Assembly: GCF_963675165.1 (NCBI RefSeq)
Contig: NC_087387.1
Coordinates: forward strand, 2,717,501-2,781,500
Origin: Halichondria panicea
Taxonomy: Eukaryota > Porifera > Demospongiae > Suberitida > Halichondriidae
DNA: 64,000 bases
Direction: 5' to 3'
The notes beneath the pieces are model-generated. The model made no database searches. It worked only from the letters and a program-made list of their open reading frames with translations, and had not been told where the DNA came from. The translations under genes and the position numbers were made by a program. Within the stretch, counting starts at the first letter, position 1, and the number at the start of each line of letters is the position of its first letter. This document shows, piece by piece, positions 37,701-60,183 of the stretch.

Positions 37701-40372
37701 TCTTTTGGACAGCGTTTTAATTTTACATGTCTGCCCATTTGTTCCCAATCATTGTTTCCCACACTAGTATAAACAAGATGCATATTGACCCACAGCTAGT
37801 GTAGTAAATACATACATGTAGCTACATTTCAATTGAAAGTAGCATAGGGTTAATGTTCTAGTGTGGATACTGACCGTCCATGCACCCACCAATACTGTAA
37901 ATGACTAGCCTCAAGCTTCTCAACATATTGTGGATTCTAATTTGCTTCCTAGCACCATAACCAATATCCAGCACATCCTAAGGATGTAGTGTGTAAGGGA
38001 AAGGACCTAGGCAGGCAGGCCCATGTCATACTCATAGTAGAGTACGTAAGGTGTTGTTTTCTAGAAATTTAGAGGAAAATAGACTGGTGTCATTTTCTAG
38101 AACTTTAGAGAAAAATAGACTGGTGTCGAGGCTAGAACTTGGCACGTACATGTACAACGCACCTTGCAGATGGATTTGACGAACTCGAGTGCTGGGTTGT
38201 GAAGGTGTAGATGTGAGCCAGGGAGGAGGGGAAACAAGTCGTCACTACCGCCTTTCTTACTCTCTCCACTGCCCAGAGTCTGGTGGATTTTCTGAGTTAT
38301 CCTGTGGATGCAATAAGGCGGCTAACTGACTGTGCAGCATACGTACACACACACAAATGATTGTACATGTGCATGTAGATAAATTAACTTCCTATATAAA
38401 ACATATATGTAAATGTACATGGGTAAAAAGGCAAGTACAATTAAGTCATGTATACAATTTAGGAACACAAAAACAGAACTTGCACTTAACCCTGAGTCAA
38501 CTAAAAGCCAAAAATTTTGCATAAACTCTCTGCACTTACTGTAAGCTCTTTGATTGCACACCACAGTTAATTAGTAAGTTGTTAGCTGTTAGTCTACATT
38601 TCCCCACCCTACGAACAATGTACATGCAGTGTACGCAGTGTACACCCTCTAGATCTACCAGAAATCACAATCCATTGCCACAATTTGGACACAAGTATAA
38701 TTTGGAAACAAATTGAGAATGGGACTGCATGGCCACAAATACAAATACATGTACGTACTGTTAAACACGTAATCTACTCATAAACTCACGTGAAGAGTTT
38801 ATCAGTGAGTTCACTCTCGATCCTCTGCTGAGCAAAAGAGACGGAGCTGGCAGTGAGGGTGGGGTCGGGCACAAACTGAGTCTGGCTGCTCAGAGGTGGC
38901 CTTTTCTTGACGGGGGTAGCCATACCGGGGGTACGAGCTGCGCGCTCATCCTCGGCATGGACATACAGGTCTCGAACATGACTGGCCACAAGCACCTGAA
39001 AAATAAGAATAGTTAGACCCTGTTTTGGAGGTGTCTACGGCATTTACATGTAGATCGAATTAAGCCTGATGTAAATATAGTACTGTGAACAGAGTAAGAG
39101 ATACAATACGGTGATACTATATATGTGCTTCCCAATGCAGTACTGAAGCATTGCTAAAAAGTACTACTACTACAACAGTGTAGATACTAGTTTTAGTTAT
39201 TAGTTTTTGTTGTTAAAACGATCTATGCCAAAAAATTTAAGTCTAAAATTAATTCAATTACCAAGGGATAACCTTTGTGGTAAGGATCACCAACCTACAA
39301 ACCATCAAATACCACTGAGAACAGCTTTGTGGGAATGCACTATTAAAAGCAGCATAATCTGAGCTTAATTGTTTCAAAACATGTACAATTGAGTTCGTTT
39401 CAGGTGGAAATCATGGTCTCCGTCTCTTATTTATTACAACCCGTCCCAATCTATCTAGGTTTATCCATGGTGGATATACATACATGTAGTAAACATAAAC
39501 CTGCAGGTGCACTTACTCTGAACCAGTCCTGACAGGACCCAGCCTCAGGGAGGTACTTGCAAATGTTCCAGTTCATGTCCAGTTGGATACCTTTACCATC
39601 AACCACACCCTCTGACTCGACCTCCTCACTATCCATGTCTTCATCACTGTTCTCTTCGTCGTTTGGTGCCTCCTCTGGATCTCGGTACACCTCCAGCAAT
39701 GAGCGAGGCAGCTTCACCTTCACACCTCCGTAGTTCTCCTGAATGAAGGAAAGAGAAAGATATTGTTAGCACATATGTAGGGCATGCAGAAGGTGTTCGT
39801 AGCAAAGTAGTAGAATTGTATTGTAGTTCCTACAACAGTCTAACCTTTTAGCTTGGCAAGGGTACATGTAGGTATTTCCCAACGTACTGGGTGCAGATGA
39901 GTGCAAGTAACTACATCGTATAAATACATTAATTGGTAGGGCAGAAATTACGAACATGGGCACTCAAAATGTTTGCCAAATTTGTGCTGTGTATGTCTTT
40001 AATAGCAGCACAGTACTTAACAGTCGAGCTCACCTGATCCATCCAGAAGAGATAGCTCCAGCAGGTGGTGGGCTCAATCTGGATACTGTGGAAGAGGTCA
40101 CGTGACCGGATGCTCCCCAGTATGAACTCGATGTATGCACTAGCGTCCTCCACACACTTCTTTTTGGTACACACGACAATCTTACTGAAGTCGGCATACA
40201 CAATGGTGGAGCCAAGACGTTTGAACTCCCCGATGAGTTGCATGAACAGCTTTTTCATCAGCTTGTGGACGATTCGACAGAGAGCAGGCTCATACATAAG
40301 GGAAGTGGGGGAACGGAGCCAGCTGTGAACGTGTGCATGAGTGGGGTAGGTTAATTGTGATATCTTTTTAAG

Positions 40373-40446
<74 letters not shown>

Positions 40447-43400
40447 GCATCACAAGAGTAGTACCACTCTTGTGATGCATATGTATATGTAACATACTAG
40501 ATTACAGTCATAAACACAAACATTTTTCTAATGAAAGCACCACAGGTGCTGATGCCTCGGTGGAGATGCCAAAGCTACATAACATAAAGCTACTAATACA
40601 CATGATGAACATTTTTTAATTTGCATGCTGCATGCAAACTCAAAGAGTGGGTAATGATCGACCATGATTGTTGTTAAAAACGATCGATGCCAAAGTTTAA
40701 GTATAAAATTAATGGCTGCCATCAGCAGCGCCTTGCAGCTCTCTTCTCACTCTTGCAACTACCAATAGCTAGCGTTTTAGTGCAGAGCTAACTACTAAGT
40801 AGAGTAGCAACATTCGGTAAACAAGTTTGGCTACGTGCTCTTCCGAAAAGGCTGCAATGGCACTCCAAGTAAGCAAAACTAGGCATAACTCAAGAACGAA
40901 GCATTATTTTTCAAATCCTCGAATAAAAATCCAAGAATACATGACTAGAAGCCTATAGACTTGCACTTCATTCATCCTTGAGCAGCTGTAGCAGTCTACA
41001 CAGACAGACAGACAGACAGACAGACACACACACACACTACCGTATACCTTGCTTGCGCATGCACACCGAGGCATAATAAAGGGTAATTGCCGGTAACTCA
41101 TTAAGTTATTAATTCAATCATGTATGTACTACGATAAAAACGTTTTCTGGTATCGATAAGACCACCCACCGATAAGACCACCCACCGATAAAAATGCTGT
41201 AGTTGTAGGTCAGCGTAATGGTTGTGGTGTGTGGAGACCTCGTTGAGCCAGGTGTGCACTAATCCCCTGAGCACTTTGAAGGCACTAGAACAGAGTGCAG
41301 CTTCATCGTACACAGTCAGGGATGCCGCACCAGTACCCTCCATTAACTCCTCAAGGGATGCCTGCATGTGTGTGAGAGATGGGGATGGGGTGTAGGATAT
41401 ATGATCATTATGTACTGGACTAAATGGTTCTACTGTGGGCCTGGGTTATGCAGCATAAGAGAATGCCATGTAAATCGTCAATACTACATGTACTCTTAGA
41501 TATCATAATCCCCAAGGCTTTGTGGTCAGTGCAGAATATTACATTCAGTGCCATATATGCTGCATATTGCATATTGCAACAACATAGCAACAGGATATAA
41601 TACGCATAAAAATATGCACTGCACATCTGAGTATTTGTTTACTCCGAGAATAACTCAAAATAAACATGCAAGGTACCTATTAGGCTTCGTTGACAGAAGT
41701 GATTTCTAGAAAGAGATAGCAATAGGTGATCAGACATGAGGTTACTGTTTCAAATCGGTGTGCTACTATTGACACTACAGAGAGGGACATCTACAGGTAG
41801 GTATTACAATAACAAAGTGACTGTGAAATTTTACTGCTTTTTAGATAGTTGTCTTCGTGAAGATTGGGGTAAAATAAGATTGACTGGTCCAAGAAGCATA
41901 AAAAACGAGGGAGCTGTTCAACTATGTCTTCGAACAAACAGGAATGAATATCTCTGGTTCTACATAGCCACTCAAGACGGTTGGACAAATAATCGCACAG
42001 CAACAAATTTAGCCTGTAGAGAACTGGGCATGAGTTACACTGGTAAGCTACAGATATACACTGGGAACACAGGATGAATTATCATTACATGTACATTGAC
42101 CATTGTTCACTATAATTTTGAGTAAACAGATGTCACAGTGGGCACCGTACAACTAATGGAAGACGCTGTGACAGTAACAGTAGAAATTAATTGTAACAAT
42201 GAGGCTGAGAAGTTTATAGACTGTTTACCCAGTTTGATAGACATATCCGGGAGGAATCAAGTTGCTGGACTGATTTGCAGTACGTTTCCTGTGTTCCAAA
42301 ATATTATACTAAGTGTCATTTATTCTATAGACTGCATAGAAGGAGCTCTAAGAATGGTGGATGGCTCCAGCTACAATGAAGGACGAGTGGAGGTGTGCTC
42401 CAATGGTCGCTGGGGTACAGTGTGTGGTGATGGATGGACAGAGAGAGAAGCTGCTCTAGTGTGCAGTAGACTGGGGTACCCAACTCTAAGTAAGGCAATG
42501 GTTGTACGCTGTATATTTATCTTCTTATTTAACACGTAGATGCTACAATCAGCAACTTTGGAGAGGGTAGTGGTCCATTGTACGATATTACCTGTCGAAA
42601 CACGGAAAGTGATGACCATGAATGTACACCCATAATAACATCTGCTCCATCAAGATGCAGTCACTCAATGGATGTTGGAGTGAGGTGCCTTCCTTTTATT
42701 GATGTTTGTCCAGTTCCAGTCAACGAAATAATTGTCACAGTAACAGCTTACGATTGTCAGCAACTTCCAACACCAACACCAACACCTACGTCAACGATTG
42801 CAAAGTGTACCCCAATGAGTACTGTCAGTGAACAAGGTAGCAATGTCAATGAGATGACTACTAACGACAGGCAATCGATGATAGTTACCGAAACCCCACA
42901 ACCAAATAATGGAGCCACTACAGATAGCAGTATCAAGAACACTAGTGGGACATTAGGAGCACTCATTGGTCTATTGGCAGCTGCTCTAGTGGTTGTTGTT
43001 GCTGGATGGATTGTGTCGTGTGTTTACTTTCAGCAGAAAATAAACAAGTAAGCTCTAAATGCAAGCCTATAATGATCACTGAAAGCTAAGAAAGAATAAC
43101 ATAACTATAATAAAAGATATTGCACACTCTCGCAGGAAATACAAAGGCCACACCCACACAGCACCTGCCTCTATGATTGACCCCACCCTCCAACTCAACA
43201 ACCCAGCATATGGTGTTAGCACCACTGCCCCACACACCATGTACAGCTCTCACGGACCCTCCTATGAAGTCGTCGGCGCTAACGAGAGGGTGGGGCACAG
43301 CTATGATGTCATCAGCCGTAGGAGTTTGTCTATACCACACCCACATACCACACCCCCTGCATCCAACGAGGAGTACAGTACACTAAACACCAGCAGAGAG

Positions 43401-46400
43401 AATAATTATCACATATTAGAGAGCAATGGAGATGGTGAATATTCAATGGTCGGACAAAGTGACCCTCAAGATTACGAGGTGCCCGCCCCTCCCCCCCAAG
43501 GTGAAGAGTACTCTACACTGAAGCATTGATAGCCCACGTGACTTAACAAGACACAGTGACACTCAAGTATATTATAAGCATTGTAATCACTAAATGAACA
43601 CACAGTATATATACATGGATGTATACGCAGTTGTTGTAAGATAAACTTTATCTCTTGTTCAATAACTTGACAACTGATAAGTCAATGTGAGTACCAGTAA
43701 ATATACTGTACAACATGGACCCAAACAAAGTAACCAATGGGAAGGCAGTGAATTCAACCCCCCCCCTCTTAGACCGACACTTACAACTATAGACATCTAT
43801 AATTTGACTCTAACCAATGCTACAATTTACTGTATCAAAGCATTGCATATACAATGTATAAAGCCACTCCGAATGAGACTGTAGTTCCTGTCAGAAATTG
43901 CTGTAAATTAGATGCGGGCAGGAATAATGAAATCATTATAAAAGTGCTGCACTAGTACTTCAGATCCATAAATTCTTTTAGAATACGATTACAAGTCACA
44001 AACGATGCAATCTGATTGGTCACTGATACGTCCGTTATTTCTCATAGAGACCTGCCAGACATCCAGAGGTCTTCTACGGAGGTCTATATTAATTTGGTTA
44101 GCTATACATGTAGCTGCGCAAAACACTTCATGAATACGTCAGCGGCCCGTTTTGCTGAAAGGGCCTGGGGAGAACCTGGTCATGTAGAGTGTGTTCCTAT
44201 AAAAGCAACGATTTGAAGTATTGTGTGGGGGTGGGATCTGGTCTCAAAAGATCACTTTGCCCAATATGCCATATATGTACTGGCACTGCATTTCCTTTGA
44301 TATCAGACATCAAAAGTACATACTACATATTGCACATAGCAACAACGGAATATAATACGCATAATAATATGCACTGCATGTCTGAATATTAATTTTGTTT
44401 ACTCTGAGAATAACATAGGAAAACTATATAAAGCGCCTTCAGTGGTTGATACGCCCTTGTGCATGGTTTTATTGACAGAATCAACATAAACAATTAACAA
44501 CATCTTGCATGTTAATGACATTTCATTGTCCACGCACGTGATGTTGTCGTACCTCCTCCTTTGCATAATTCCTACACTTTTGCAGAAATAAAATGAAAAG
44601 TGTAGGAAACTGCTACCATTAATTTTAGACTTAAATTTTTTGGCATAGATCGTTTTAACAACAAAAACTAATAACTAAAACTAGTATCTACAAACTTGCT
44701 CGATGTATCTACAAGCTGACGGCTAGCTGCAACTCGATCACCAACATTTACCTTCGTGTCGCCCTACCCATTCTTTTGTATAAGTTTTGTTCAACATTTC
44801 CTGGCCTACCGGGCGTTTGATGCGTGGGTGGAAACACTATACCGTAACCTTAAGTGTATCCCATATAAGGAACGCACAGTACTCAACACTTTCATTTATG
44901 TGATGAAAAGATTCTGCAAACTCCAGTATTAGGCTTCGTTGACAGAAGTGATTTCTAGAAGAGATAGCAATAAGTGATCAGACATGAGGCTACTGTTTCA
45001 AATCAGTGTGCTACTATTGACACTACAGAGAGGGACATCAACAGGTAGGTACTACAATAACAAAGTGACTGTAACAATTGTATATTGTATATTGCTTTAC
45101 AGAGAGCTGTCTTCCTGAAGATCACGATAAAATAAGATTGATCGGTCCAAGAAGCATAAAAAACGAGGGAGCTGTTCAACTGTGCCTTCAAACAACCGAT
45201 AACGAATATTTCTGGTTCTACATAGCCACTCAAGATGGTTGGACAAATAATCTCACAGCAGCAAATTTAGCCTGTAGAGAACTGGGCACAAGTTACACTG
45301 GTAAGCTACAGATATACACTAGGAACATATATAGGATGCATAGCTTTGGTTCGTCCAGAGTATCATTACATTGACAATTTGCCCATTGTTCACTATAATA
45401 CTTTTTCAGATGTCACAATGGGCACTGTACAGCTAATGGCAAACGCTGAGACTGTAACAGAAAAAATTAATTGTAACAATGAGGCTGAGAAGTTTACAGA
45501 CTGTTTACCCAGTTCGATATACATATCCGGGAGTAATCGAGTTGCTGGACTGATTTGTAGTACGTTTTCTGCTTTCCAAAATGTCCCTTATATCTATTGT
45601 ATAATTGTATAGACTGCACAGAAGGATCCCTAAGACTGGTAGATGGCTCCAGCTACAATGAAGGACGAGTGGAGGTGTGCTCCAATGGTCGCTGGGGTAC
45701 AGTGTGCAATGATGGATGGACAGAGAGAGAAGCTGCTCTAGTGTGCAGTAGACTGGGGTACCCAACTCTAAGTAAGGCAATGGTTGTACGCTGTATATTT
45801 AACACTCTATCCTCATATATAGATGCCACTCTTAGCAACTTTGGAGAGGGTAGTGGTCCATTGTGTGATATCACCTGTCCAAGTACGGGAAGTAACGATC
45901 AGGAATGTATACTAATAATAACATCTGCTCCATCAAGATGCAATCACTTAATGGATGTTGGAGTGAGGTGTCTTCCTTTTACTGATGCTTGTGCAGTTTC
46001 AGTCAACGAAATAATTGTCACAGTAACAGCTCAGCAACCTCCAACACCAACACTAAAACCTATGTCAACGATTGCAAAGTGTATCCTAACAAGTACTGAA
46101 CAAGATGGCAATGTCAATAAGATAATTACTAACAACAAGCAACCAATAACAGTTACCGAAACCCCACAACCAAATAATGGAGCTTCCACAGAGAGCAGTA
46201 TCAAGAGCACTATTGTGACATTAGGAGCACTCATTGGTCTATTAGCAGTTGCTCTAGTGGTTGTTGTCACTGGATGGATTGGAACGTGTGTTTACTTACA
46301 GCGAAAAATGAACAAGTAAGTCTAAATGCAAGCCTTAATGATAATAGTGAACTGATAGCTAAGAAAGAAGAAAGCTAAGAAAGAATAACATACAAAAGAT

Positions 46401-49400
46401 ATTGCACACTCTCACAGGAAATGCAAAGGCCACACCCACACAGCGTCTACCTCTACGAGTGACCCCATCAACAACCCAGTGTATAATGGTAGCACCATTG
46501 TCCCACACACCATGTACAGCTCTCATGGACCCTCCTATGAGGTCATTGACACTATCGAGGGGGTTGGGCACAGCTATGACGTCATCAGCCGTAGGGGTTT
46601 GTCTATACCACATCCACATACAACCCCTCCTGCATTCAACGAAGAGTACAGTACGCTAGACACCAGCAGAGAGAATTATTATCACACACTAGAAAGCAAT
46701 ACTGGAGATAGTGAATATTCAACGATTGGACAGAGTGACCCCCACAATGACAGATCTGACCCCAGAGATTACCAGGGGGAAGAGTACTCTACACTAAAGC
46801 ATTGATAACCTACGTGACTCAACAAGACACACTCAAATATAAACAGTAAAATATTGCATACAGTGCCTTTTTTTACGTGACTTTATTAGCTAGTCAAATG
46901 TTTGTAATCACTAAATAAACAAGCATTGAATGTACTTTCAAACACCACACTACACTTTAACTTTGTTCCCCTTCACACAGACTCTCCTCAGTCTCCTAAT
47001 GTCCTGCACAATGTCATAGTGACACACACACACAAGAGAGTGTAGACTTCCATTTCAATAACTCGATGACTCTGATATGTCAATGTGAGTACCACTATAG
47101 CACTGTACAACATGGACCCAAACAAAGCAACCAATGGGAAGCCATGCAGTGACTCCCCATGCTGATATGTCAATATGAGTACCACCAGGAGCCCATAAGA
47201 GAAGGAGCGGCTGACTACGGGGATCACATCTCGTAAGTGGTTATGACCGCATTTCCATATATGCAGAGTCACTTAAGTGGTTGAAACCCTACACGTGTTA
47301 TACGCAATACAGGGCTGCAGTTTGCAAGCACTTAGTCGCTTCCAAACAAGGAAGTGCGGTTTCACCGGCAATTACGAGATGTGATCCCCGAGTGTACGTT
47401 GAAGTTAGCCGCTCCTTCTCTTATGGGCTCCTGGTACCACTATAGCAATGTACAACATGGACCCAAACAAAGCAACCAATGGGAAGCCATGCAGTGACTC
47501 CCCTCTTAGGTACCGACGTTCACAGCTAAAGACAAGGATTCAGAAACACCGTAACTTAACACTAGTTAACCTTTTAACTAGATACAGCCAGACAATGCTG
47601 CTACAAAGTACTTTTACTATCAGTATCAAAACACTACATAAGGCCACTCTAAACGAGACTGTATAGTTCCTATCAGAGGCTGCTCTAAATTAGATTCGGG
47701 TGGGAGCATTATGAAATCAATATAAAAGTGCTGCACTAGTACTTCAGATCACTGAATTTGCTTAGAAAACGCTTATTACAAACAGTGTAATCTGATTAGC
47801 GTATAGCGGGTAATTTTCGTGGGGTAAAATATTCGTTATTTTCGTGGACAAGCTGACCTCCATGAAATTTTAACGTAGGCGTGGCTTACCGGAACGTGGG
47901 AATGCAGTGCAGCTAGGCAACAAGACTAAATGAAATTTTTACTCACGAAAACCACTGTTTCTCGAGTTCAACAAAAATTTGTATCCCACGAAACTTACCC
48001 GCTATACGGTAGTCACTGAGAGGTCCGTTATTTAATTCTCATAGAGATACATACACATACACAGTGCCGTATAAAGGTAATTTTTGTTGGTGCACATTTA
48101 CTGCCCATTTAATGTTTCGTATTGTACAGCTTAGGATAGTTACGTTGAACGTACGTATATAGCGGTAGAATAATTTCGTATTTTGTATGATGCTCTACAA
48201 TATGAAACATACGAAAATTCCACCATACGAAAATAACTCAGTTTATACTAATACGGTATCATTAAATACGTAGCTTTATCATTCACTAGTCACACAATGC
48301 ACCTACCTGTGGGACCCAGTCAAAACTGACAGTGCTAGCAGCTCCGCCCTCATAGTCGTTGATGTGAGGAGACTGCAGTACAGTGTTGACTGCCAGGTTG
48401 TCAAGAGAGAGCTCTATGCAGCAGGTGGGATACGCCCCTGGGTTATTGATCTCAATGCTCCGGCCTTCTTCGTTGTCCATACACAGCCGCTGATCATCGC
48501 CCTCTTGACCTGGGGGGGGAAGTTTGATCACACAGTCTTAATCTTTATCAATCTACTTATATATATATAATCTACTTATAATCTACTTCACCCAAATGGT
48601 TCTTTTTTGCAGTACTGTACTTATCATGGTTTATTGGGTTGGCTGTTGATTTTCACCGTCTTGAAGCAAGGAAATTTCCAACTTGCACCTATCAATCACC
48701 CCTTTAAAAATTGGAAATCATCCCCTTAATATTTGAAACTCACATGTGCCTGCTTATCCTATCACGAATGTAGCCACTATAATCTTACATTGACAATTAA
48801 GGATCGGATATTATAACGCACCTCCAAGATCAGGATTGTCCGATGGGGAGACCCAGAGGATGTGGTTGTGTCTAGTCAGGTGACGAGAGTAAAATACGTC
48901 CGAAACGAAGAGGGAGAAGTTTGAGGGGAGGTTGCCAATGGGAATGTGGGCATAGCGAGCCTGGTAGAGCTGATTCTGCATGCATGGAGAGAACATGAAC
49001 AGACTGAGGAAAACAGTTGAGAAAACAGGAGTGTATACGCTTGTGCCTACCGTATAGCGGGTAATTTTCGGGGACAAAATATTCGTGGTTCAGCAATATT
49101 GAGACATTTCGTGGGCGTGGTTGCTGTTTGCACTACAGGTAAAGGTAGGCAAGGTCGCTTCATTCATGGGTAAAATATTCGTGGTCAGATCTTCAACCAC
49201 AAAAACTTTGCCGCACGAAAATTACCCGCTATACCGTATATGAAAGCACACACTTAAAACCTATACTACCAGATGTACTTTCTGATCAAAACACTCTCAC
49301 CTACCCACATGGACAACACATGTACACACATCATGGGCACACACGTACCCCAACTAATAGTGGGTATAGATTTCCAACACACTGCAAAAGGCAGCCCTCC

Positions 49401-50802: not shown

Positions 50803-50900
50803 GTTGATGTATATGTTAGCAGGAGTTTTTTTTAGTGATAGGTAGTCGTGGCTGATGTATATGTTAGCAGGAGTTTTATTAGTGATAGGTAGTCTAGTGT
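50803..50900. repeat. 48-bp tandem duplication upstream of the first RING/B-box gene
   Basis: 'gatgtatatgttagcaggag' with 'agtgataggtagtc' occurs at 50805 and 50853. It creates an upstream in-frame ATG and a hydrophobic stretch that the paralogues lack. Confidence 0.75.
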
Positions 50901-50935
50901 GTTTTGGCTTCCTTTGTTTAGGCGTGGTTGGCAAA

Positions 50936-52570
50936 ATGGCAAGCAAAGGAACTGTTAGCAGTGAGGTGGATACTACCTGTCACATCTGTTTGGAGCAGTA
51001 CAAGATCCCAAAGTTGCTGCCCTGTGGACACTCATTCTGTCTCCAGTGTCTAGTCAAGATTGATGAAGCCAACACAAAGCCTAGAGCTAGAGCTAGAGCT
51101 ATCTTCAGGCAAAGTGTCATCTGCTGTCCAGAATGTCGAACTAACCACAATATTTCGAATGGCCCTTCATCTTTGCTGACTGACTACACCATGTTGTGGG
51201 AGCTACAGACGTTGGCTTGGCGTGCTGGGTTGGATAAGAGGCGCTCTGTTTGTGGTGGGTGTCCCGATGGTCGTGGTTGCAGCAGTTTCTGTGTCGACTG
51301 CGATGATTTCTTGTGCTCAGTCTGCGTACAACCTCACAAACGAATGAAGAAGTTGGCCAAACACAAGTTGATTGATATCAAAGACCTGGCTACTGTCAAA
51401 CCAACGCCGGAGCCTACAACGTGTGCATCTCACCCGTCCCTACTGGTCAGCATGTACTGCTCTACGTGTAGTCTGCTCATCTGCACCGACTGTATTGCTT
51501 GCGCTAGCCACTCCACGCACACACTCCACACCCTCACTGCTGACATACTCAAATCCTTTGAACAAAAACTGGATGACCTTATCCAAAACACAGACAAAGC
51601 TGTATCCCAAAGAGTTCAGAGGATCGATGAAATCAACAACGTTCAAGAAACAATGAAAGAGAATCCGATCAAATTGAAAAAGGCTATCGATGAAATAGCA
51701 GACAAGTGCTTGTTAGCTGTGGAGCGGCTGAGGGACAATGCACATGCACAAGTCGACCAAAAACTGGCAACCAGCTTGGAGAAAAGTAATGAACAAAAAC
51801 AGATGATTACTGGTGAACTAAATACGCTCAAGTCTTGTGGACGGTTTGTACAGAAAACGCTTTCATGTAGCGAACCTGCTGCCAGAACAGCAATGGTTGC
51901 TAAGGCCGCTAGTGTGTTGTCAGGGGTTACAGTGACCTCTACTAAAGTTTCAGCAATCGTACCGCTTGTCATGGCTGTGAACGATATCGAATCCATGTTC
52001 CAGTCTGAAACACTAGTGTCAGAATTCAACCCATCTAAGATAAAGGTGACTGGTTGGACTCACTCTACCGTCAGAAATCAGATGGTAATACAAGTAACTA
52101 TTCCAGTGGTGCCCCCTCCAAAGCCAGAGTTCAGAGTGGAATACAGTAGCCTTCGCCGAGAACTTCCATTGAAGGTTAAGGCAGTGGACAGCAAAACTTG
52201 GAGGCTAGAGTTCACTCCGTGCTACATTGGACACCATTCTTTGAAGGTGAATCTGTTTGATGAATGCTTTTTTATTCCAGCGTCATCACAGTACATGTTT
52301 GGAAATTATGGTAATTTGATTAACATTGGAGGCTTTCTGAGAAAGGGTGATATTGTACGACCTTTGACGAAAGATAACACTGGGGATCGCAAAGTTGGAA
52401 GAATTGATGAACTACGTAATCGTCCTCGTAAAAGAGGGAGCACTGACCTTTACACGATGGATATTATGTGGAATTATGATACAGACAATTCAGTTCTAGA
52501 AGAAAACTATGAGTTTTCTTATAATTCAGGACACAGTGGTTACTTTCCTTTTGAACTTGTCCTTAGCTGA
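50936..52570 (+). CDS. RING/B-box (TRIM-like) protein with filamin-like domain, paralogue 1
   Basis: A single-exon gene of 544 residues, starting at the ATG shared by all paralogues (MASKG). RING finger: C15, C18, C30, H32, C35, C38, C64, C67 (TTCHICLEQY ... LPCGHSFCLQC ... CCPEC). B-box 1 is near 102-150 (VCGGC ... FCVDCDDFLCSVC), B-box 2 near 160-195 (CASHPSLLVSMYCSTC). A helical, probably coiled-coil stretch follows to about 330. Residues about 364-455 resemble a filamin/Ig repeat ('WRLEFTPCYIGHHSLKVN'). Residues about 460-544 are a module I cannot name ('RKGDIVRPLTKDNTGD', 'TMDIMWNYDTDNS'). RING/B-box/coiled-coil proteins are generally E3 ubiquitin ligases, with the C-terminus choosing targets (family knowledge). 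An upstream in-frame ATG at 50855 would add a hydrophobic leader, but it arises from a local tandem repeat and is not conserved. Confidence 0.88.
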   Translation: MASKGTVSSEVDTTCHICLEQYKIPKLLPCGHSFCLQCLVKIDEANTKPRARARAIFRQSVICCPECRTNHNISNGPSSLLTDYTMLWELQTLAWRAGLDKRRSVCGGCPDGRGCSSFCVDCDDFLCSVCVQPHKRMKKLAKHKLIDIKDLATVKPTPEPTTCASHPSLLVSMYCSTCSLLICTDCIACASHSTHTLHTLTADILKSFEQKLDDLIQNTDKAVSQRVQRIDEINNVQETMKENPIKLKKAIDEIADKCLLAVERLRDNAHAQVDQKLATSLEKSNEQKQMITGELNTLKSCGRFVQKTLSCSEPAARTAMVAKAASVLSGVTVTSTKVSAIVPLVMAVNDIESMFQSETLVSEFNPSKIKVTGWTHSTVRNQMVIQVTIPVVPPPKPEFRVEYSSLRRELPLKVKAVDSKTWRLEFTPCYIGHHSLKVNLFDECFFIPASSQYMFGNYGNLINIGGFLRKGDIVRPLTKDNTGDRKVGRIDELRNRPRKRGSTDLYTMDIMWNYDTDNSVLEENYEFSYNSGHSGYFPFELVLS

Positions 52571-52689
52571 ACACATTTTAGTTGAAAACATTATAATCAG
52601 TTGTTGAGTTAGGTAAGTATATGTTGTGCAACTGTATACTATTGTGTGTCAATTATCTTTCCTATACCATAAATAGATTGTTTCTTTAT

Positions 52690-52779
52690 GTATAATTATA
52701 GTTTCAGTTATTGTACGCTTTATTTGGAATGTGTGTGGGTGGGCTGTCATGTGATATGTCATATGTCGTTGTGTAAAGA
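52690..52779 (+). promoter_or_regulatory. Conserved 5' flank of the second-type RING genes (relic 1)
   Basis: 'ttattgtacgctttatttgg', 'aatgtgtgtgggtgggctgt' and 'catgtgatatg' recur at 59837-59916 and 62640-62712, each time ending at an ATG followed by 'agt.atttagagtgtcagta'. Conserved placement suggests promoter and 5' UTR. Confidence 0.45.
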
Positions 52780-52866
52780 ATGAGTGATTTAGAGTGTCAG
52801 TACTGCATACCTACTTACTGTGCAGAATGCATCAGACTCGCGAGTCTTCACATTTGCACAGAAAAA
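52780..52866 (+). pseudogene. 5' relic of a second-type RING gene
   Basis: Begins ATG agtgatttagagtgtcag, as the gene at 62713 does, but the RING has an internal deletion and the sequence switches to the dispersed repeat also seen at 7229-7341 after 'cacatttgcacagaaaa'. Nothing functional can remain. Confidence 0.7.
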
Positions 52867-53024
52867 TAGATTGGTCAAACTTCGTGTATATATACGTGAC
52901 ATACTTGTGTTGCACAGTCAGCATATTAGATATGATTCTATAAGTGGCTGTGGTTTCGTGACATTAGTTTACTGCACGTGATACTTAGATTTAGCTAAAA
53001 TTACCTACAAAAAATTATCGTGCC

Positions 53025-53326
53025 ATGTCTGATTATGCTCGAGATAATTATTACCTATTATGCTATTCAGCCTATTATCCTTTTCTATTATTCCCGCATT
53101 TTTCCTCCAATGCACAACATTGACCTCATGTCATCGCCACACAAGTGTAACATCAAACTATAAATAATGGCCACATGACTTTATCAGAATGCCAAGGAGA
53201 TAATTAACCATCAGTACTTTCATTACCATCAGGCCTACAAATGTTTATGATTTGTGTACTTCCAAAACCTGCCTATTATTGTTATAAAGGTGCCTATTAT
53301 GACAAGCATAATTCTCACCAAAAAAT
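53025..53326. mobile_element. AGATTATGCTCGAGAT element, right end missing at the duplication junction
   Basis: Matches the complete copy at 60184-60548 from 'gattatgctcgagata' onward, including 'ttttcctccaatgcacaaca' and 'agaatgccaaggagataatt'. The right end is cut at 'caccaaaaaatg', exactly where the copy of the POLE intron sequence starts. Confidence 0.65.
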
Positions 53327-53330
53327 GAGA

Positions 53331-53665
53331 GCAAAACTCATGAAGTGAATATTGACGGTAGGGTTTATATGAAGATAGAGCCTAATGTGTATCTTAATTT
53401 ACTCCGATTTTCATACTAGAGGCCTATGTGTATGACCAAGTAAAATCAAGCATCTGTGTTACAGTACAGATAGCATTAACACTTTCGAGGGGGTGGTGAA
53501 CGGTTATTAACTGTTTTCTAAAACAAATATATAATAGCAGTTGCACAGTACATGTAGCTCCCCAGGATGGACTGATATTTCTTTACAATATACTCTGTAG
53601 AGCTTGTGTTTAAATTAGCGATTGCTTTTGTGGGAGTCCCTGATACGTGCTTAACAACCATTCAT
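53331..53665. repeat. Left edge of the segmental duplication, copy 2
   Basis: A near-identical copy of 49577-49893, containing 'aatattgacggtagggttta' and 'gcattaacactttcgagggg'. Confidence 0.8.
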
Positions 53666-53796
53666 AGTCGGCACACTGACTGCGTGAGGGCTGGGGTGTG
53701 GGAGTAGCCCCCAGACAAGTTTAGACGCTTAGTGATTGATTCGGCAACTTATAATCATTACAATAATCACGACTGTACTTTGCAATGCAATCTACA

Positions 53797-54140
53797 TACC
53801 GTATAATCTGGTTATTAAGCGCATACGCCTATAGCTAAAAGAGCAGGCCTCTATGCGCCTATAATCCGGATGCGCTTATAGACGCCCATGACATTTCAAG
53901 GAAGCAAATCCATTAGCTAGCTCAATTGTTTGTTTGCAAAAGGTCTATAGTCATATCTGACAGGACAGCAGTAACACAACTACCGGTAGTGAAAGAGAGT
54001 TAACATCTATAAAGAAGTGTGGAGACCAGTTGTTGGGCAGAGAACTGTGGAAAACCATGCGCCTTCTATCCAGGCTCTAGGTCTGTTAACCAGTATGCGC
54101 CTATTACTTGATGTGCGCTTATTAACCAGATTATACGGTA
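53797..54140. mobile_element. TACCGTATAATCTGG MITE inserted upstream of RING/B-box paralogue 2
   Basis: The ends 'taccgtataatctggttatt' plus 'aagcgca' and 'tgcgctt' plus 'attaaccagattatacggta' are perfect inverted repeats, flanked by TA. The paralogous region before gene 1 (about 50660-50680) reads straight through from 'caatgcaatctacat' to 'gagcata', which is the unoccupied site. Confidence 0.85.
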
Positions 54141-54267
54141 GAGCATATCGTTATTGTTGAGGGGTCCAAGTTACCCAGTATTACGCCCATGCCCATGTTT
54201 GTACAAGAGCACTAATTTGGTTTCAATGATACATAATTGTTTTGGCTTCCTTTGTGGTTTAGGCAAA

Positions 54268-55902
54268 ATGGCAAACAAAGGAACTGTTAGCAGTGAGGTG
54301 GCTGATACTACCTGTCACATCTGTTTGGAGCAGTACAAGATTCCAAAACTGCTGCCCTGCGGGCACTCTTTCTGTCTCCAATGTCTAGTCAAGATTGATG
54401 AAGCCAACACAAAGCCTAGAGCTAGAGCTAGAGGTTATAGGCTAACTGTCATCTGCTGTCCAGAATGTCGAACTAATCACAATATTTCGAATGGCCCCTC
54501 ATCTTTGATGACTGACTACACCATGGTGTGGGAGCTACAGACATTGGCCTGGCGTGCTGGGTTGGATAAGAGGCGCTCTGTTTGTGGTGGGTGTCCCGAT
54601 GGTCGTGGTTGCAGCTGTTTCTGTGTCGACTGCGATGATTTCTTGTGCTCAGTCTGCGTACAACCTCACAAACGAATGAAGAATTTGGCCAAACACAAGT
54701 TGATTGATGTCAAAGACCTGGCTACTGTCAAACCAACGCCGGAGCCTACAACGTGTGCATATCACCCGTCCCTACTGGTCAGCATGTATTGCTCGACTTG
54801 TAGTCTGCTCATCTGCACTGACTGTATTGCTAGTACTAGCCACTCCACGCACACACTTCACACCCTCACTGCTGACATACTCAAATCTGTTGAACAAAAA
54901 CTGGATGACCTTATCCAAAACACAGACAAAGCTGTATCTCAAAGAGTTCAGAGGATCGATGAAATCAACAACGCTCAAGAAACGATGAAAGAGAATCCAA
55001 TGAAATTGAAACAAGCTATCGATGAAATAGCAGACAAGTGCTTGTTAGCTGTAGAACAGCTGAGGGCCAATGCACATGCACAAGTCGACCAAAAACTGGC
55101 AACCAGCTTGGAGAAAAGTAATGAACAAAAACAGATGATTACTGGTGAACTAAATACGCTCAAGTCTTGTATACGGTTTGTACGGAAAACGCTTTCATGC
55201 CACGAACCGGCTGCCAGAACGGCAATGGTTGCTAAGGCTGCTAGTGTGTTGTCAGGGGTTACAGTGACCTCTACTGAAGTTTCAGCAATTGTACCACTTT
55301 TTATGGCTGTAAACGATATCGAATCCATGTTCCAGTCTGAAACACTAGTGTCAGAATTCAACCCATCTAAGATAAAGGTGACTGGTTGGACTCACTCTAC
55401 CGTCAGAAATCAGATGGTAATACAAGTAACTATCCCAGTGGTGCCCCCTCCAAAGGCAGAGTTCAGAGTAGAATACAGTAGCTTTCGTCGAGAGCTTCCA
55501 TTGAAGGAGGTCAAGGCAGTGGACAGCAAAACGTGGAGGTTAGAGTTCACTCCGTGCTACATTGGATACCATTATTTGAAGGTGAAGCTGTTTGATCAAT
55601 GGTTGGATATTCCAACGTCATCACCACGCATGCATAGAACGCATGGTGATCTGATTAAAATTGGAGGCTTTCTGAGAAAGGGTGACATTGTACGACCTTT
55701 GACGAAAGATAACACTGGGGATAGCAAAGTTGGAAGAATTGGTGAACTACGTAATCGTCCTAGTAAAAGAGGGAGCGCTAACTTTTACACGATGGATATT
55801 ACGTGGAATTATGATACAGACGATTCAGTTCTAGAAGAAAACTACGAGTTTTCTTATTCAGAAGGCAGTGGTTACCTTCCTTTTGAACTTGTCTTTAGCT
55901 GA
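54268..55902 (+). CDS. RING/B-box (TRIM-like) protein with filamin-like domain, paralogue 2
   Basis: A single-exon gene of 544 residues, domain order as in paralogue 1. The start chosen is MANKG, matching the other copies; the open frame extends 38 codons upstream into non-conserved sequence. The RING ligands are all present (CHIC ... CGHSFCLQC ... CCPEC). The loop after the RING core has RARARGYRLT in place of RARARAIFRQS. The B-box 2 exit loop reads CIASTSHSTH. The filamin-like domain and tail are kept, with divergence concentrated at 'DQWLDIPTSSPRMHRTHGD', the counterpart of 'DECFFIPASSQYMFGNYGN' in paralogue 1. It arose with paralogue 1 by the segmental duplication that also copied POLE intron sequence. 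Expected role: E3 ubiquitin ligase with a filamin-like target-binding region (inference from family). Confidence 0.88.
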   Translation: MANKGTVSSEVADTTCHICLEQYKIPKLLPCGHSFCLQCLVKIDEANTKPRARARGYRLTVICCPECRTNHNISNGPSSLMTDYTMVWELQTLAWRAGLDKRRSVCGGCPDGRGCSCFCVDCDDFLCSVCVQPHKRMKNLAKHKLIDVKDLATVKPTPEPTTCAYHPSLLVSMYCSTCSLLICTDCIASTSHSTHTLHTLTADILKSVEQKLDDLIQNTDKAVSQRVQRIDEINNAQETMKENPMKLKQAIDEIADKCLLAVEQLRANAHAQVDQKLATSLEKSNEQKQMITGELNTLKSCIRFVRKTLSCHEPAARTAMVAKAASVLSGVTVTSTEVSAIVPLFMAVNDIESMFQSETLVSEFNPSKIKVTGWTHSTVRNQMVIQVTIPVVPPPKAEFRVEYSSFRRELPLKEVKAVDSKTWRLEFTPCYIGYHYLKVKLFDQWLDIPTSSPRMHRTHGDLIKIGGFLRKGDIVRPLTKDNTGDSKVGRIGELRNRPSKRGSANFYTMDITWNYDTDDSVLEENYEFSYSEGSGYLPFELVFS

Positions 55903-56034
55903 ACACACTTTAGCAGAAAACATTACAAATAATTATGTTGTTGAGTTAGGCAAGTGTGTTGTACAACTGTAATTGTTGTGTGTCAATTAACTTGTTGTAT
56001 TTGTGTGGACACAAAGTTTCTCTGTTGCATCATT

Positions 56035-56700
56035 AATGGCAAGCAAAGCAACTGTCAGCAGTGCAGTACAAGCACCCAAAGTTGCTGCCTTGTGAACACT
56101 CACTCATTGTGTCTCAATGTCTGGTCAAGATTGATGAAGCCAACACAAAGCCTAGAGGCAAACTGTCATCTGCTGTCTAGAATGTAGAACTAATCACAAT
56201 ATTTCGAATGGCCCCTCATCTTTGCTAACTGACTACACCATGTTGTCAGACTACAGACGTTGGCCTGGCACGCTGATAAGAGGCGCTCTGTGTGCGGAGA
56301 GTGTCCTGATAGTCGTGGTTGCAGCTGTTTCTGCGTCGACTGCGATGATTTCCTGTGCTCATTCTGTGTACAAGCTCACAAACAAATGAAGACTTTGGCC
56401 AAACACAAGTTGATTGTTATCAAAGACCTGGCTACTGTCAAACCAACGCCGGAGCCTACAAATGTGTGCATCTCACCCGTCCCTATACTGGTCAGCATGT
56501 ACTGCTCTACTTGTAGTCTGCTCATCTGCACTGACTGTATTGCTCGTCCAGTGGTTTTGGGGGGCACTAGCCACTCCACGCACACACTCCACACTCTCAC
56601 TGCTGACATCTCACATCATTTGAACACAAACTGGATGACCTTATCACAAAGCTATATCCCAGAGGATCGATAAAATCAACAACACGATGAAAGAGAATCT
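56035..56700 (+). pseudogene. Degenerate RING/B-box gene copy
   Basis: Starts 'atggcaagcaaagcaactgt', as paralogues 3 and 4 do. It has lost several RING cysteines through deletions (codons between 'cagtgcagtacaagcaccc' and 'ttgtgaacactcac'), contains an early TGA, and shifts frame repeatedly. The B-box part, 56260-56620, is readable ('ECPDSRGCSCFCVDCDDFLC'), then homology stops near 56700 in the coiled-coil region. Its B-box 2 loop (RPVVLGGTSHSTH) is closer to paralogue 3 than to its neighbour, paralogue 2. Confidence 0.85.
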
Positions 56701-57060
56701 GTGCCAAATTTTCGATATAGACTCGTGGGTCATCACTGTGTGTAGAGTGGCTAAAAAGTGCAGTAGTGCCATCAAAATCCGAACGATTAATACATTTTCT
56801 TCATAATTACGGTCATGCATTGTAGCTAGCTTTTTAGAGCCTTCTATTGATACGAGAGAGAAAGTTCGAAGAATCGTGGCTATGTTCGAACTAATAGTTG
56901 AGTGTTTGGCCCTGTCAATCCGCCAAGGAAGTTTTTGCTGGCCGTGAGTTCAGACTTGAATAGATAGAGTCTTACCCAGTCTATACTTAGGTACTATCAG
57001 CTTAGTGCTCTAAGCTGCTGTCCTCGAGAACAAGCATTCGAAAATAAAATGTGTTCGATA
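56701..57060. other. Spacer, no feature recognised
   Basis: No open frame of note and no repeat boundary, between the pseudogene end and the sequence shared with 60410-60650. Confidence 0.45.
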
Positions 57061-57340
57061 ATCGGTTGTTTACTGTGCTATGATTCGTACTGACCAAATC
57101 CTGCCATAATTGTTATGAAGGTGCCTATTATGCCAGTATAATAGGCACCCAAAAAATGTTCCTATTATGCGCAAAATTCAAACATAATCTACGTTGCAAC
57201 CCCTAGCTGTGTCGTACGTGGTCTTCATTATTCAAGTTGACAACTTGCATGGGTGGTGAGCATCACATGCATTCAACATCAATAAACGTTTACAATAATC
57301 ATGAACTTTGCAAAGCAAATGTTGGCATGGTTGATGCACA
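57061..57340 (+). promoter_or_regulatory. Distal 5' flank of paralogue 3, shared with paralogue 4
   Basis: 'cccctagctgtgtc', 'caagttgacaacttgcatgg' and 'gagcatcac.tgcattcaac' match 60540-60630 upstream of paralogue 4. There it is within 200 bp of the ATG; here about 700 bp of inserted DNA has moved it away. It may include promoter elements. Confidence 0.45.
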
Positions 57341-57604
57341 GTGTATGTTTCAGTGTTGTTGCTATAACCTCTATACCTGTGTTGTTAGTAATGAACATGT
57401 ATTCTGTGCTCTTTCGCTATTAAGCCATGCAAAGTCGATTGTAGTTTCTCAGTCTATTATTCCTAAAATAGCATGCGGATTGAGGCAAATTAATGGTAAT
57501 GATATTCATAGAATTTTAATTAAAAATACACCCCCAACTTCCTCAATAAGCGGAAGTGCATTTTTTCTTTTCTTTTCATTTGAGGTAACTTTTTGGAAAG
57601 CTGC

Positions 57605-57945
57605 CAAATTCTAGTTGGGCGCCGCCGCTCTCCACCGTTGCCCGGAAGGAGGTCGGGAATCAAGCCTATATCCACAGTTTTGTTTTACTGGTGGAATTCC
57701 ACCAGCTCCAATCAGATTGCAATATCTCAACACACCCACTCAACTTTACCACGTGTGAATTTTGCACACATTGGATTGACTGAGAGGCGTGGCCAACACC
57801 CACTTTAATAAATGATATTCATCGCTATTGGCATAGAATGAATGATATTCATGATACTATTGCGTAACAGGCCAGAACAAAACTGTGGATAGGCTTGATT
57901 CCCGACCTCCTTCAGGGAGGGCGGCGATGCCCGACTAGCCAAATT
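57605..57945. mobile_element. Foldback element with about 75-bp arms upstream of paralogue 3
   Basis: Left 'aaattctagttgggcgccgc' and 'aggaggtcgggaatcaagcc', right 'ggcttgattcccgacctcct' and 'gccaaattcc'. The arms also pair at 'tatccacagttttgtt' and 'aacaaaactgtggata'. The 71-residue frame at 57593-57808 is element sequence. Confidence 0.8.
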
Positions 57946-58084
57946 CCAAGCGGCGGGAGGGCCTGAGAAACTACAAATTGACTTTGCATGGCCTTATGTA
58001 GTTAGTTTATTTTGATTGGAAGCTTTGCACAATAGGTTCTATATAGAAGTGGGTGTGTTTTGGCTTCCTTTGTTTAGGCAAAAA

Positions 58085-59731
58085 ATGGCAAGCAAAGCAA
58101 CTGTTGAGCTTGAGGTGGCTGATACTACCTGTCATATCTGTTTGGAGCAGTACAAGCACCCAAAGTTGCTGCCCTGTGGACACTCATTCTGTCTCCAATG
58201 TCTGGTTAAGATTGATGAAGCCAACACAAAGCCTAGAGCTTTATTTAGGCAAACTGTCATCTGCTGCCCAGAATGTAGAACTAATCACAATATTTCAAAT
58301 GGCCCCTCATCTTTGTTGACTGACTACACTATGTTGTGGGAGGTACAAACGTTGGCCTGGCGCGCTGGGTTGGATAAGAGGCGCTCTATGTGTGGGGGGT
58401 GTCCTGATGGTCGTGGTTGCAGCTGTTTCTGTGTTGACTGCGATGATTTCCTGTGCTCATTCTGTGTACAAGCTCACAAACGAATGAAGACTTTAGCCAA
58501 ACACAAGTTGATTGATATCAAAGAACTGGCTACTGTCAAACCAACGCCGGAGCCTACAATGTGTGCATCTCACCTGTCCCTACCGGTCAGCATGTACTGC
58601 TCCACTTGTAGTCTGCTCATCTGCACTGACTGTATTGCTCGTCCAGTGGGCTTAGGGGGCAGGGGCACTAGCCACTCCACACACACACTCCACACTCTCA
58701 CTGCTGACACACTCACATCCTTTGAACACAAACTGGATGACCTTATCCAAGATATTGACAAAGCTGTATCCCAAAGAGCTCAGAGGATCGATGAAATCAA
58801 CAACGCTCAAGAAACGATGAAAGAAAATCCGATCAAATTGAAACAAGCTATTGATGAAATGGCAGATAAGTGCTTGTTAGCTGTAGAGCAACTGAGGGCC
58901 AATGCACATGCACAAGTCGACCAAAAACTGGCAACCAGCTTGGAGAAAAGTAATGAACAAAAACAGATGATTACTGGTCAACTAAATACGCTCAAGTCTT
59001 GTATACGGTTTGTACAGAAAACGCTTTCATGTCGCGAACCTGCTGCCAGAACGGCAATGGTTGCTAAGGCCGCTAGTGTGTTGACAGGGGTTACATTGGC
59101 CTCTACTGAAGTATCAGCAACTGTACCGCTTGTTATGGCTGTGAAAGATATCGAATCCATGCTCCAGTCTGAAAGACTAGTGTCAGAATTCAACTCATCC
59201 AAGATAAAGGTGACTGGTTGGACCCACTCTACCCTCAGAAATCAGATGGTAATACAAGTAACTATTCCAGTGGTGCCCCCTCCAAAGCCAGAGTTCAGAG
59301 TGGAATACAGTAGCTTACGTCGAGAGCTTCCATTGAAGGTCAAGGCAGTGGACAGCAAAACTTGGAGAATAGAGTTCACTCCGTGCTACATTGGATACCA
59401 TTATTTGAAGGTGAAGCTGTTTGATCAATGGTTGGATATTCCAACATCATTGCAGTACATGTTTAGAGATTCTGGTGATTCGATTACCATTGGAGGCGCT
59501 CTGAGAAAGGGTGATATTGTACGACCTTTAACGAAAGATAACACTGGGGATCGTCAAGTTGGAAGAATTGATAAACTAAGTATTCGTCCCAGTAAAAAAG
59601 GGAGCACTGACTTTTACAAGATGGACATTATGTGGAATTATGATACAGACAATTCAGTTCTAGAAGAAAACCACGAGTTTTCTTATTTAGGAGGTAGTAG
59701 CGGCTTTCCTTTTGAACTTGTCCTTAGCTGA
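58085..59731 (+). CDS. RING/B-box (TRIM-like) protein with filamin-like domain, paralogue 3
   Basis: A single-exon gene of 548 residues from the conserved MASKA start. The RING is complete (TTCHICLEQYKHPKLLPCGH ... CCPECRTN). The short ALFRQT loop lacks the RARARA expansion of paralogues 1 and 2. B-box 1 has FCVDCDDFLCSFC. The B-box 2 region carries a glycine-rich insertion (RPVGLGGRGTSHSTH). The coiled-coil stretch, filamin-like domain ('WRIEFTPCYIGYHYLKVK') and terminal module ('KMDIMWNYDTDNSVLEENHE') are kept. It groups with paralogue 4 by these loops. Behind it, 185 bp after the stop, lies a relic of the second gene type. Expected role as for the other copies. The start is supported by conservation from this ATG onwards and by loss of protein similarity upstream. 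Confidence 0.88.
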   Translation: MASKATVELEVADTTCHICLEQYKHPKLLPCGHSFCLQCLVKIDEANTKPRALFRQTVICCPECRTNHNISNGPSSLLTDYTMLWEVQTLAWRAGLDKRRSMCGGCPDGRGCSCFCVDCDDFLCSFCVQAHKRMKTLAKHKLIDIKELATVKPTPEPTMCASHLSLPVSMYCSTCSLLICTDCIARPVGLGGRGTSHSTHTLHTLTADTLTSFEHKLDDLIQDIDKAVSQRAQRIDEINNAQETMKENPIKLKQAIDEMADKCLLAVEQLRANAHAQVDQKLATSLEKSNEQKQMITGQLNTLKSCIRFVQKTLSCREPAARTAMVAKAASVLTGVTLASTEVSATVPLVMAVKDIESMLQSERLVSEFNSSKIKVTGWTHSTLRNQMVIQVTIPVVPPPKPEFRVEYSSLRRELPLKVKAVDSKTWRIEFTPCYIGYHYLKVKLFDQWLDIPTSLQYMFRDSGDSITIGGALRKGDIVRPLTKDNTGDRQVGRIDKLSIRPSKKGSTDFYKMDIMWNYDTDNSVLEENHEFSYLGGSSGFPFELVLS

Positions 59732-59836
59732 ACACATTTTAAAATCTGTTGTTGAGTTAGGTATATGTATGTTGTGCAACTGTATATTGTTGTGTGTCAA
59801 TTACCTTTCCTATACCATAAATAGATTGTTTCTTCA

Positions 59837-59916
59837 TGTAGTTTCAGTTATTGTACGCTGTATTTGGAATGTATGTGGGTGGGCTGTCATGTGATATGTG
59901 AAATGTCGTTGAAGGA
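59837..59916 (+). promoter_or_regulatory. Conserved 5' flank of the second-type RING genes (relic 2)
   Basis: The same blocks as 52690-52779, ending at the ATG of the relic at 59917. Confidence 0.45.
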
Positions 59917-60030
59917 ATGAGTCATTTAGAGTGTCAGTATTGCTCCACTCGGTACAGGGACCCAACATTTATTTCTGTGGACATACCTATATACTGTGCA
60001 GAATGCATCATCACATTTGCACAGAAAAGT
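59917..60030 (+). pseudogene. 5' relic of a second-type RING gene
   Basis: The first codons (MSHLECQYCSTRYRDP) match the intact gene at 62713 (MSDLECQYCSTQYRNP). The remaining RING cysteines are partly lost ('FISVDIPIYCAECI' against 'LLSCGHTYCSKCI'), and the sequence runs into the dispersed repeat shared with 7229-7341. The same truncation point in both relics means one shared ancestor. Confidence 0.75.
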
Positions 60031-60183
60031 AGATTGTTAAACTTCGTGTATACATACTTGTGTTGCACAGTCAGCTTACCAGACATGATTCTAATTAGCT
60101 ATGGTTTCGTGACGTCAGTCGCACGTGATGCTTAGATTTAGCTAAAGCAAAAAAAAATTATGCTATAGTGCTGTACGTGTCTA

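Follow-up and report, generated by a model that had tools for sequence, protein, structure and literature searches.

A tandem pair of sponge SRCR receptor genes with candidate ITAM tails in a family that mixes ectodomains and tails

Introduction

Can a receptor of the scavenger receptor cysteine-rich (SRCR) type signal by itself in a sponge, through an immunoreceptor tyrosine-based activation motif (ITAM) in its own cytoplasmic tail? This question is raised by two tandem genes of Halichondria panicea, here called copies A and B, which lie in a 64,000-nucleotide stretch of contig NC_087387.1 (C11:2717501-2781500, hereafter the window). The original prediction, made from the letters of the window alone, took them to be receptors that signal through a Syk/Src-type pathway without a separate ITAM adaptor. 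We examined the two genes, their relatives in the 131-Mb assembly (39 contigs; fetched loci are labelled L) and the candidate readers of their tails encoded in the same genome. The results suggest that both copies may well be self-contained ITAM-type receptors, members of a large family in which ectodomains and tails have been recombined.

Results

Tyrosine motifs in copies A and B

Both copies are on the forward strand and have open spliced models of six exons with GT-AG introns and identical phases (A, 41736-43529, 489 amino acids; B, 44984-46805, 482 amino acids). The predicted proteins share one layout, namely a signal peptide (recognized by eye), an SRCR ectodomain, a Thr/Pro-rich stalk, a single hydrophobic membrane segment and a tail of ~130 amino acids that starts with basic residues. 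A clear SRCR domain occupies residues 146-239 in both (Pfam PF00530; whole-protein match E 1.4e-23 and 83.5 bits for A, E 4e-22 and 78.8 bits for B, curated cut-off 26.1), and no Pfam model other than those of SRCR domains exceeded the cut-off in either protein.

The tail of copy A contains, in order, a proximal pair YEVV-x9-YDVI (43263..43313), the series YSTL-x7-YHIL-x7-YSMV, a YEVP site (43473..43484) and a C-terminal YSTL within EEYSTLKH (43509..43520). Copy B has YEV(V/I)-x9-YDVI, then YSTL-x7-YHTL-x8-YSTI and a terminal EEYSTLKH, and the first YSTL is preceded by acidic residues (NEEYSTL) in both copies. When the strict motif was defined as YxxL/I-x6-8-YxxL/I, copy A gave one match (YSTL-x7-YHIL, 43374..43418), because its third site (YSMV, 43440..43451) ends in V, and copy B gave two overlapping matches (YSTL-x7-YHTL, 46647..46691; YHTL-x8-YSTI, 46680..46727). 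The order and spacing of the sites in the original prediction, including the terminal YSTL, YEV(V/I) and YDVI in both tails, were therefore read correctly, and its two overlapping ITAM matches per tail hold for B and not for A. It had also described the spacing as kept although the intervening residues had changed; the first gap is indeed 7 in both copies, but the second is 7 in A and 8 in B, and the residues within the first gap differ between the copies at just two of seven positions.

Residue shuffling (4,000 per tail) produced a strict match in 1.05% of cases for A and 1.30% for B, and a relaxed match (L/I/V/M at +3, gap 6-12) in 9.2% and 7.3%, respectively (1-10% over the 29 tails tabulated below). 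No strict match was found in the other open reading frames of the window of at least 110 amino acids (7,670 residues, non-coding frames included). Frames of at least 90 amino acids without a YSTL tail in the fetched loci, a control set that includes non-coding frames and some overlapping loci, gave five strict matches in 35,096 residues, one of which is another tail of the family. With a chance of ~1% per tail, the tails of A and B alone are only suggestive, and it is the paralogues that carry weight. As for other immunoreceptor motifs, the tyrosine-based inhibition motif (ITIM, [SIVL]xYxx[LIV]) is absent from A, occurs once in B (SEYSTI) and is present in 4/14 tails of the group to which they belong (group I, below). 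The tyrosine-based switch motif (ITSM, TxYxxV/I) is absent from the A and B tails and was found in all five group II tails (TDYDVI or TNYDVI).

A family of related tails on one contig

With an E limit of 1, a genome search with the tail of copy A gave 65 matches, and 64 of these lie on C11 (some genes match twice); the remaining match, on C15 (E 0.054, L035), looks unrelated by reading. Twenty-nine tails were tabulated and others were read singly, and further matches, mostly copies at 6.6-6.8 Mb, lie outside the counts. We divided the family into groups I-VII, labels of our own. In group I (SRCR ectodomain, full tail), the strict distal pair is present in 12/14 tails, the second tyrosine being deleted in L002 and L010. 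Group II genes, which have a short Cys-containing ectodomain with no detected SRCR domain, carry YSTL-x8-YHVL in 4/5 tails (broken by an insertion in L034), and all three group V genes, with yet another ectodomain and again no SRCR domain detected, carry YSTL-x8-YQIL. Two genes of group VI have a strict proximal pair, YEQI-x6-YD(I/V)I.

Tails with broken frames or partial sequence were left out of the counts (L015, L016/L017, the second group II tail of L033, the group II tail of L038, a partial group IV tail at the start of L029, and partial group III matches at C11:5900422 and 5923928); a strict pair could be read in one frame of L016, L033 and L038 and in neither L015 nor the L029 piece. 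L010, L011 and L012 were counted despite frame-shifted C-terminal ends. A phage search, used as a negative control, gave no match, and no family tail was found in frames of at least 55 amino acids in an SRCR region at C11:2.06 Mb (L040) with SRCR- and EGF-like exons.

Two further features of the tails were observed. The group II tail at L033:5998-6430 contains the unit DYHVLES(T/P)NA..PTAVGG three times, which multiplies the second YxxL site, and many group I, IV and V tails retain a C-terminal YxxLKH end, possibly a single-tyrosine (hemITAM-like) site.

Conservation of the tyrosine pair

Twenty-two tails of groups I, II and V were aligned over 95 columns with at most 20% gaps; Yp1 and Yp2 denote the tyrosines of the proximal pair, and Y1 and Y2 those of the distal pair. 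The four key positions of the distal pair rank 4, 6, 7 and 12 in conservation among the 95 columns, and no variation is seen at, among others, Yp1 with the E that follows, Y1 with its S and the L at +3, and L at Y2+3 with the following E. L002 and L010 are the only tails that lack Y2; in L034, the alignment scores Y1 and its L as kept, though two inserted residues break the YxxL. Mean entropy over the eight positions of the two YxxPhi pairs is 0.23, compared with 1.19 over all 95 columns. Uncorrected for shared descent, the permutation p is 1.5e-5 for these eight positions against the 95 columns, 4.5e-5 against 47 local columns, and 5.5e-5 for the distal four positions alone. The third tyrosine shows no conservation outside group I.

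Estimates of synonymous divergence (dS) between tails of different groups run from about 1.5 to more than 3 where an estimate could be made, and the leucine codons at +3 vary among CTA, CTG, TTA and TTG. Such near-saturated synonymous sites and differing leucine codons imply that the residue has been kept rather than the DNA, and the residues of the pair are clearly conserved across these three groups. Between copies A and B, the ratio of nonsynonymous to synonymous divergence (dN/dS) is 0.40 in the tail and 0.71 in the ectodomain and stalk.

Mixing of ectodomains and tails

At each of the 17 group I loci (16 genes), similarity to SRCR and membrane-segment sequence was detected ahead of the tail (E up to 0.01), and seven loci whose genes are all of group II or V have no SRCR similarity at the same threshold in the fetched DNA. 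With ectodomains paired to tails by the nearest downstream exon, L003 and L033a are 86% identical in the ectodomain and 28% identical over 54 aligned tail residues (an ITAM tail versus none), whereas L003 and L004 share 49% of the ectodomain and 86% of the tail. In the same way, genes 1 and 2 of L032 are 86% identical in the ectodomain and 30% in the tail, and its genes 3 and 1 are 34% and 92% identical, respectively. From these comparisons, ectodomains and tails evidently recombine and have separate histories.

In the array at 5.83-5.93 Mb, 12 group I matches alternate with 11 matches of group III, an SRCR-type group whose tail is short and stops after YDVI (18 runs, shuffle p 0.015; L010 and L015, which have lost the pair, are included, and group II, VI, VII and partial matches are omitted). 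A unit of two genes duplicated in tandem would account for the alternation. Similar ectodomains on different tails are the mark of paired receptors, and similar ectodomains, different tails and location in one cluster are all found here. As regards inhibitory partners, the ITIM pattern is present in only two of the 11 group III tails (L043 and L045) and not in the group VII tail, and DNA alignment found no ITAM remnant in the short-tailed group III. Eight of the eleven short-tailed receptors (L032, L041-L049; C11:5.83-5.93 Mb) have a new C-terminus in common, ending in ...ERGSHD. Elsewhere on the contig, C11:6636587-6645154 and 6786974-6797088 give tail matches of equal score in opposite orientation, which suggests either a segmental duplication in inverted orientation or an effect of the assembly.

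Candidate SH2 readers in the same genome

Among 71 SH2 domain matches in the genome, five regions were fetched. L023 (C4) has an SH2-SH2-kinase arrangement, with SYK/ZAP-70 as the top match for both SH2 pieces (E 1.1e-36 and 1.8e-35) and 146-150 bits to ZAP-70/SYK for the catalytic piece versus 113 for the next other kinase; one EGFR entry ranks higher solely because its chain has two kinase copies. Both SH2 domains contain LVR, and no ankyrin repeats were seen between them in the frames read (exon junctions were guessed). By this arrangement and its nearest relatives, L023 appears to belong to the Syk family. The other regions encode an SH2-ankyrin-SH2-kinase protein of Shark/HTK16 type (L021, C9; SH2, ankyrin and kinase pieces confirmed by Pfam), an SH2-SH2-phosphatase of SHP type (L022, C3; Pfam SH2 and Y_phosphatase), a PLC-gamma-type protein (L024, C9; Pfam PI-PLC-Y, the rest by reading) and Src-type kinases (L039, C2; Pfam SH3, SH2 and kinase). 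Since Syk-, Shark-, Src-, SHP- and PLC-gamma-type proteins are all encoded, there is a candidate protein for each step of an ITAM circuit.

Exon models and genomic surroundings

In copy A, exon 1 (41736..41796) encodes the signal peptide, and exons 2 (41845..42042) and 3 (42130..42279) encode the two halves of a divergent N-terminal SRCR-like stretch (PF00530 E 2.9e-4, 21.5 bits, below the cut-off; scored in A only). The clear SRCR domain begins in exon 4 (42331..42489) and ends in exon 5 (42540..43047), which also encodes the stalk and the membrane segment (about 42953-43027; hydropathy peak of 19 residues from residue 330), and exon 6 (43136..43529) continues in phase with the tail and the stop codon. 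Copy B is built alike, with the signal peptide in exon 1 (44984..45044), exons 2 (45103..45300) and 3 (45410..45559), the first half of the SRCR domain in exon 4 (45613..45771), its second half, the stalk and the membrane segment (about 46212-46289) in exon 5 (45823..46315), and the in-phase tail and stop in exon 6 (46418..46805).

The donor site after the membrane exon (43046-43051 in A; 46314-46319 in B) has the sequence AA|GTAAG, which reads AAG-TAA in frame, so that an unspliced transcript would stop just past the membrane segment and give a tail-less receptor. The same ...INK-stop occurs at the membrane-exon donor of L002, L003, L032 and L033 but not of L013.

Copies A and B are flanked by exons of a gene on the opposite strand (39929-48537) with matches to DUF1744 (PF08490; E 5.8e-44 and 7.1e-16), which we take to be a domain of the catalytic subunit of DNA polymerase epsilon. 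As they lie between two exons of this gene, they appear to be nested in one of its introns. Further along the forward strand (50846-64000), tandem long open frames resemble RING/B-box (TRIM-like) proteins by reading (four frames of 559-586 amino acids, one partial, and one of 498 amino acids running off the end of the window). On the reverse strand, a PSI (plexin repeat) domain was detected at 22597-23103 (E 1.9e-5), with a hydrophobic segment at 22072-22473 in a neighboring frame, perhaps part of a semaphorin or plexin-like receptor.

Discussion

A self-contained ITAM-type receptor

Taken together, the predicted topology, the in-phase tail exon, the retention of the pair across ectodomain types and the presence of a Syk-type kinase with two SH2 domains favor the hypothesis that A and B are self-contained ITAM-type single-pass receptors, working like Draper and situated in a paired-receptor-like array, to which we assign a probability of about 0.56. 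In such a receptor, the SRCR ectodomain would bind a ligand (most likely microbes, food particles or cells) and the receptor would cluster, a Src-family kinase would phosphorylate the tail, and the doubly phosphorylated YSTL-x7-YHxL would be held by a two-SH2 kinase of the Syk or Shark type. YEVP, YEV(V/I), YDVI and the terminal EEYSTLKH might provide further SH2 docking, the output could be uptake or activation, and the gene family would combine ectodomains with ITAM and non-ITAM tails in the manner of paired receptors. The original prediction of a self-signaling SRCR receptor thus retains its central idea: its signal peptide, SRCR ectodomain and membrane segment agree with exon models, Pfam and hydropathy, and pair conservation and the kinase lend it further support. 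Its motif count for copy A was overstated, the family has exceptions, and the two receptors it saw belong to a family of dozens.

Several observations weigh against this hypothesis. The strict pair is found in none of the seven group IV tails (SRCR genes at 6.6-6.8 Mb, L025-L031), in none of the 11 group III tails (L048 has a stop inside its tail) and not in group VII. The original prediction held that orthologues which do not keep the tyrosines or their spacing would refute it, and such losses are partly seen among the paralogues: besides these three groups, the 15-residue unit is broken by insertions or deletions in 3/22 aligned tails (L002 and L010 among 14 of group I, L034 among five of group II), and in L006 the gap has grown from 7 to 8. 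Yp2 and Y1 are separated by an equally stable distance (24 in 12 tails of group I, 23 in three of group II and 19 in another, and 25 in three of group V), so spacing by itself is weak evidence. A relaxed proximal pair, YE(V/Q/L)(V/I)...Y..(I/L/V/M), occurs in 25/29 tails versus 19/29 for the strict distal pair, and its wider spread among the groups, with a spacing of 9 in group I, implies that the tail may serve for SH2 docking in general. Moreover, the paralogues are one genome's family rather than independent species. Vertebrate-like Syk has been described only in invertebrates that also have CARD-CC/Bcl10, and sponges have type 2 paracaspases only (PMC5978004), so that a vertebrate-like pathway below Syk is not to be expected here.

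Alternative explanations

Such observations could be accommodated if the tail were a multi-site phosphotyrosine docking tail with no true ITAM, its sites read singly by Src, an SHP-type phosphatase, PLC-gamma or Crk/Nck-like proteins, and its 7-8-residue spacing inherited rather than required. Six sites in each of the A and B tails fit YxxPhi, with YEVP in addition in A, the proximal pair is the more widespread of the two, and spacing is stable elsewhere in the tail too. Group IV, which lacks the ITAM pair, yet mostly retains YEQV, YSIL or YSLL, YHVV, YEVP and EEDYSTLKH, and SHP-type and PLC-gamma-type proteins are encoded. However, the distal pair with its x7-8 gap is kept in three groups that are otherwise near synonymous saturation, and the genome has a Syk-type kinase with two SH2 domains, and we therefore regard a pure docking tail as rather unlikely, though it deserves serious attention. 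The same six sites might also be AP-2 sorting signals used unphosphorylated, in the tail of an endocytic scavenger receptor, as SRCR proteins often are. This would leave more in the tail than AP-2 seems to need, including the acidic residues right before the YSTL sites, the conservation of residues other than Y and +3 (the E following Yp1 and the LE following Y2), and the paired arrangement with the distal pair ~80 residues from the membrane, and an endocytic role as the full explanation seems improbable.

It is also conceivable that the tail exon is not joined to the rest, or that the copies are decaying duplicates. In the big cluster, several neighbors (L010, L011, L012, L015 and L016) have a reading frame disrupted within or close to the tail, but A and B are fully open with consistent GT-AG junctions, dN/dS between their tails is 0.40, and SRCR and membrane-segment similarity precedes the tail at every group I locus, so we consider an artefact or decay highly improbable. 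Whether the whole array is an immunoreceptor complex like the paired-receptor clusters of vertebrates, in which exchangeable ectodomains (SRCR plus at least two types in which no SRCR was detected) are joined to shared ITAM or non-ITAM tails that Syk would read, is a more tentative proposal, possible but somewhat doubtful at present.

Relation to known systems

Syk homologues have been reported in sponges (PMC9486129, PMC9601881), for planulozoan animals it has been inferred that ITAM receptors acting above Syk are anciently conserved (PMC5978004), and an early origin of ITAM and ITIM receptors was stated in a 2007 review (PMC2248247). In the searchable open-licence literature, we found no named sponge receptor and, by title and beginning of abstract, no description of a sponge SRCR receptor with its own ITAM; the available parts of PMC10815962 and PMC9505182 contain nothing on point. 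With concrete receptor candidates and a kinase in one genome, the question of which tails sponge Syk would read becomes a peptide-binding experiment, and an array in which ectodomains and tails are mixed is relevant to the origin of immune receptor families. If the array is an immunoreceptor complex of the kind proposed above, the receptor end of the ITAM-Syk circuit would be present in Porifera, older than or independent of eumetazoan immunity. The paired-tyrosine signal of vertebrate immune receptors, found here in the tails of a large mixed array, suggests that this wiring may date back as far as sponges.

Single-chain receptors of ITAM type are known, and so are SRCR receptors; it is their combination in a tail-swapping sponge array that is absent from the open-licence literature searched. 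Draper, the engulfment receptor of the fly, itself carries an ITAM and has an EMI/EGF-type ectodomain, the motif of CD5 departs from the ITAM consensus that A and B meet, and the Alr allorecognition family of Hydractinia reportedly has ITAM/ITIM-like tails. Draper, an uptake receptor acting with Shark and Src42A, is the closest working analogue (PMC5978004). Unlike Draper, A and B have an SRCR ectodomain, without EMI/EGF-like repeats recognized by Pfam, and an ITAM spacing of 7-8 that we list as a further difference, so they would work like Draper without being members of its kind. CD5 and CD6 resemble A and B in that separate exons encode the SRCR ectodomain, the membrane segment and the tail, and CD5, with an ITAM-like motif in its tail and a tail-less isoform, indicates that an SRCR receptor can carry such a motif; both have three SRCR domains, compared with one above the cut-off and one divergent SRCR-like stretch (the latter scored in A) here (PMC8158487). 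Among invertebrates, CgIgIT2 of the oyster is likewise a single-chain receptor whose tail contains an ITAM, but it has five Ig domains and belongs to a mollusc, and Alr is likewise a clustered family in an early animal, with 41 members, but its ectodomains are of the Ig superfamily and the animal is a cnidarian (PMC11999971). Within sponges, the 296 SRCR superfamily genes of Amphimedon document massive duplication comparable to the array described here, in a survey whose main text does not contain the word "tyrosine" or treat signaling motifs (PMC10855680).

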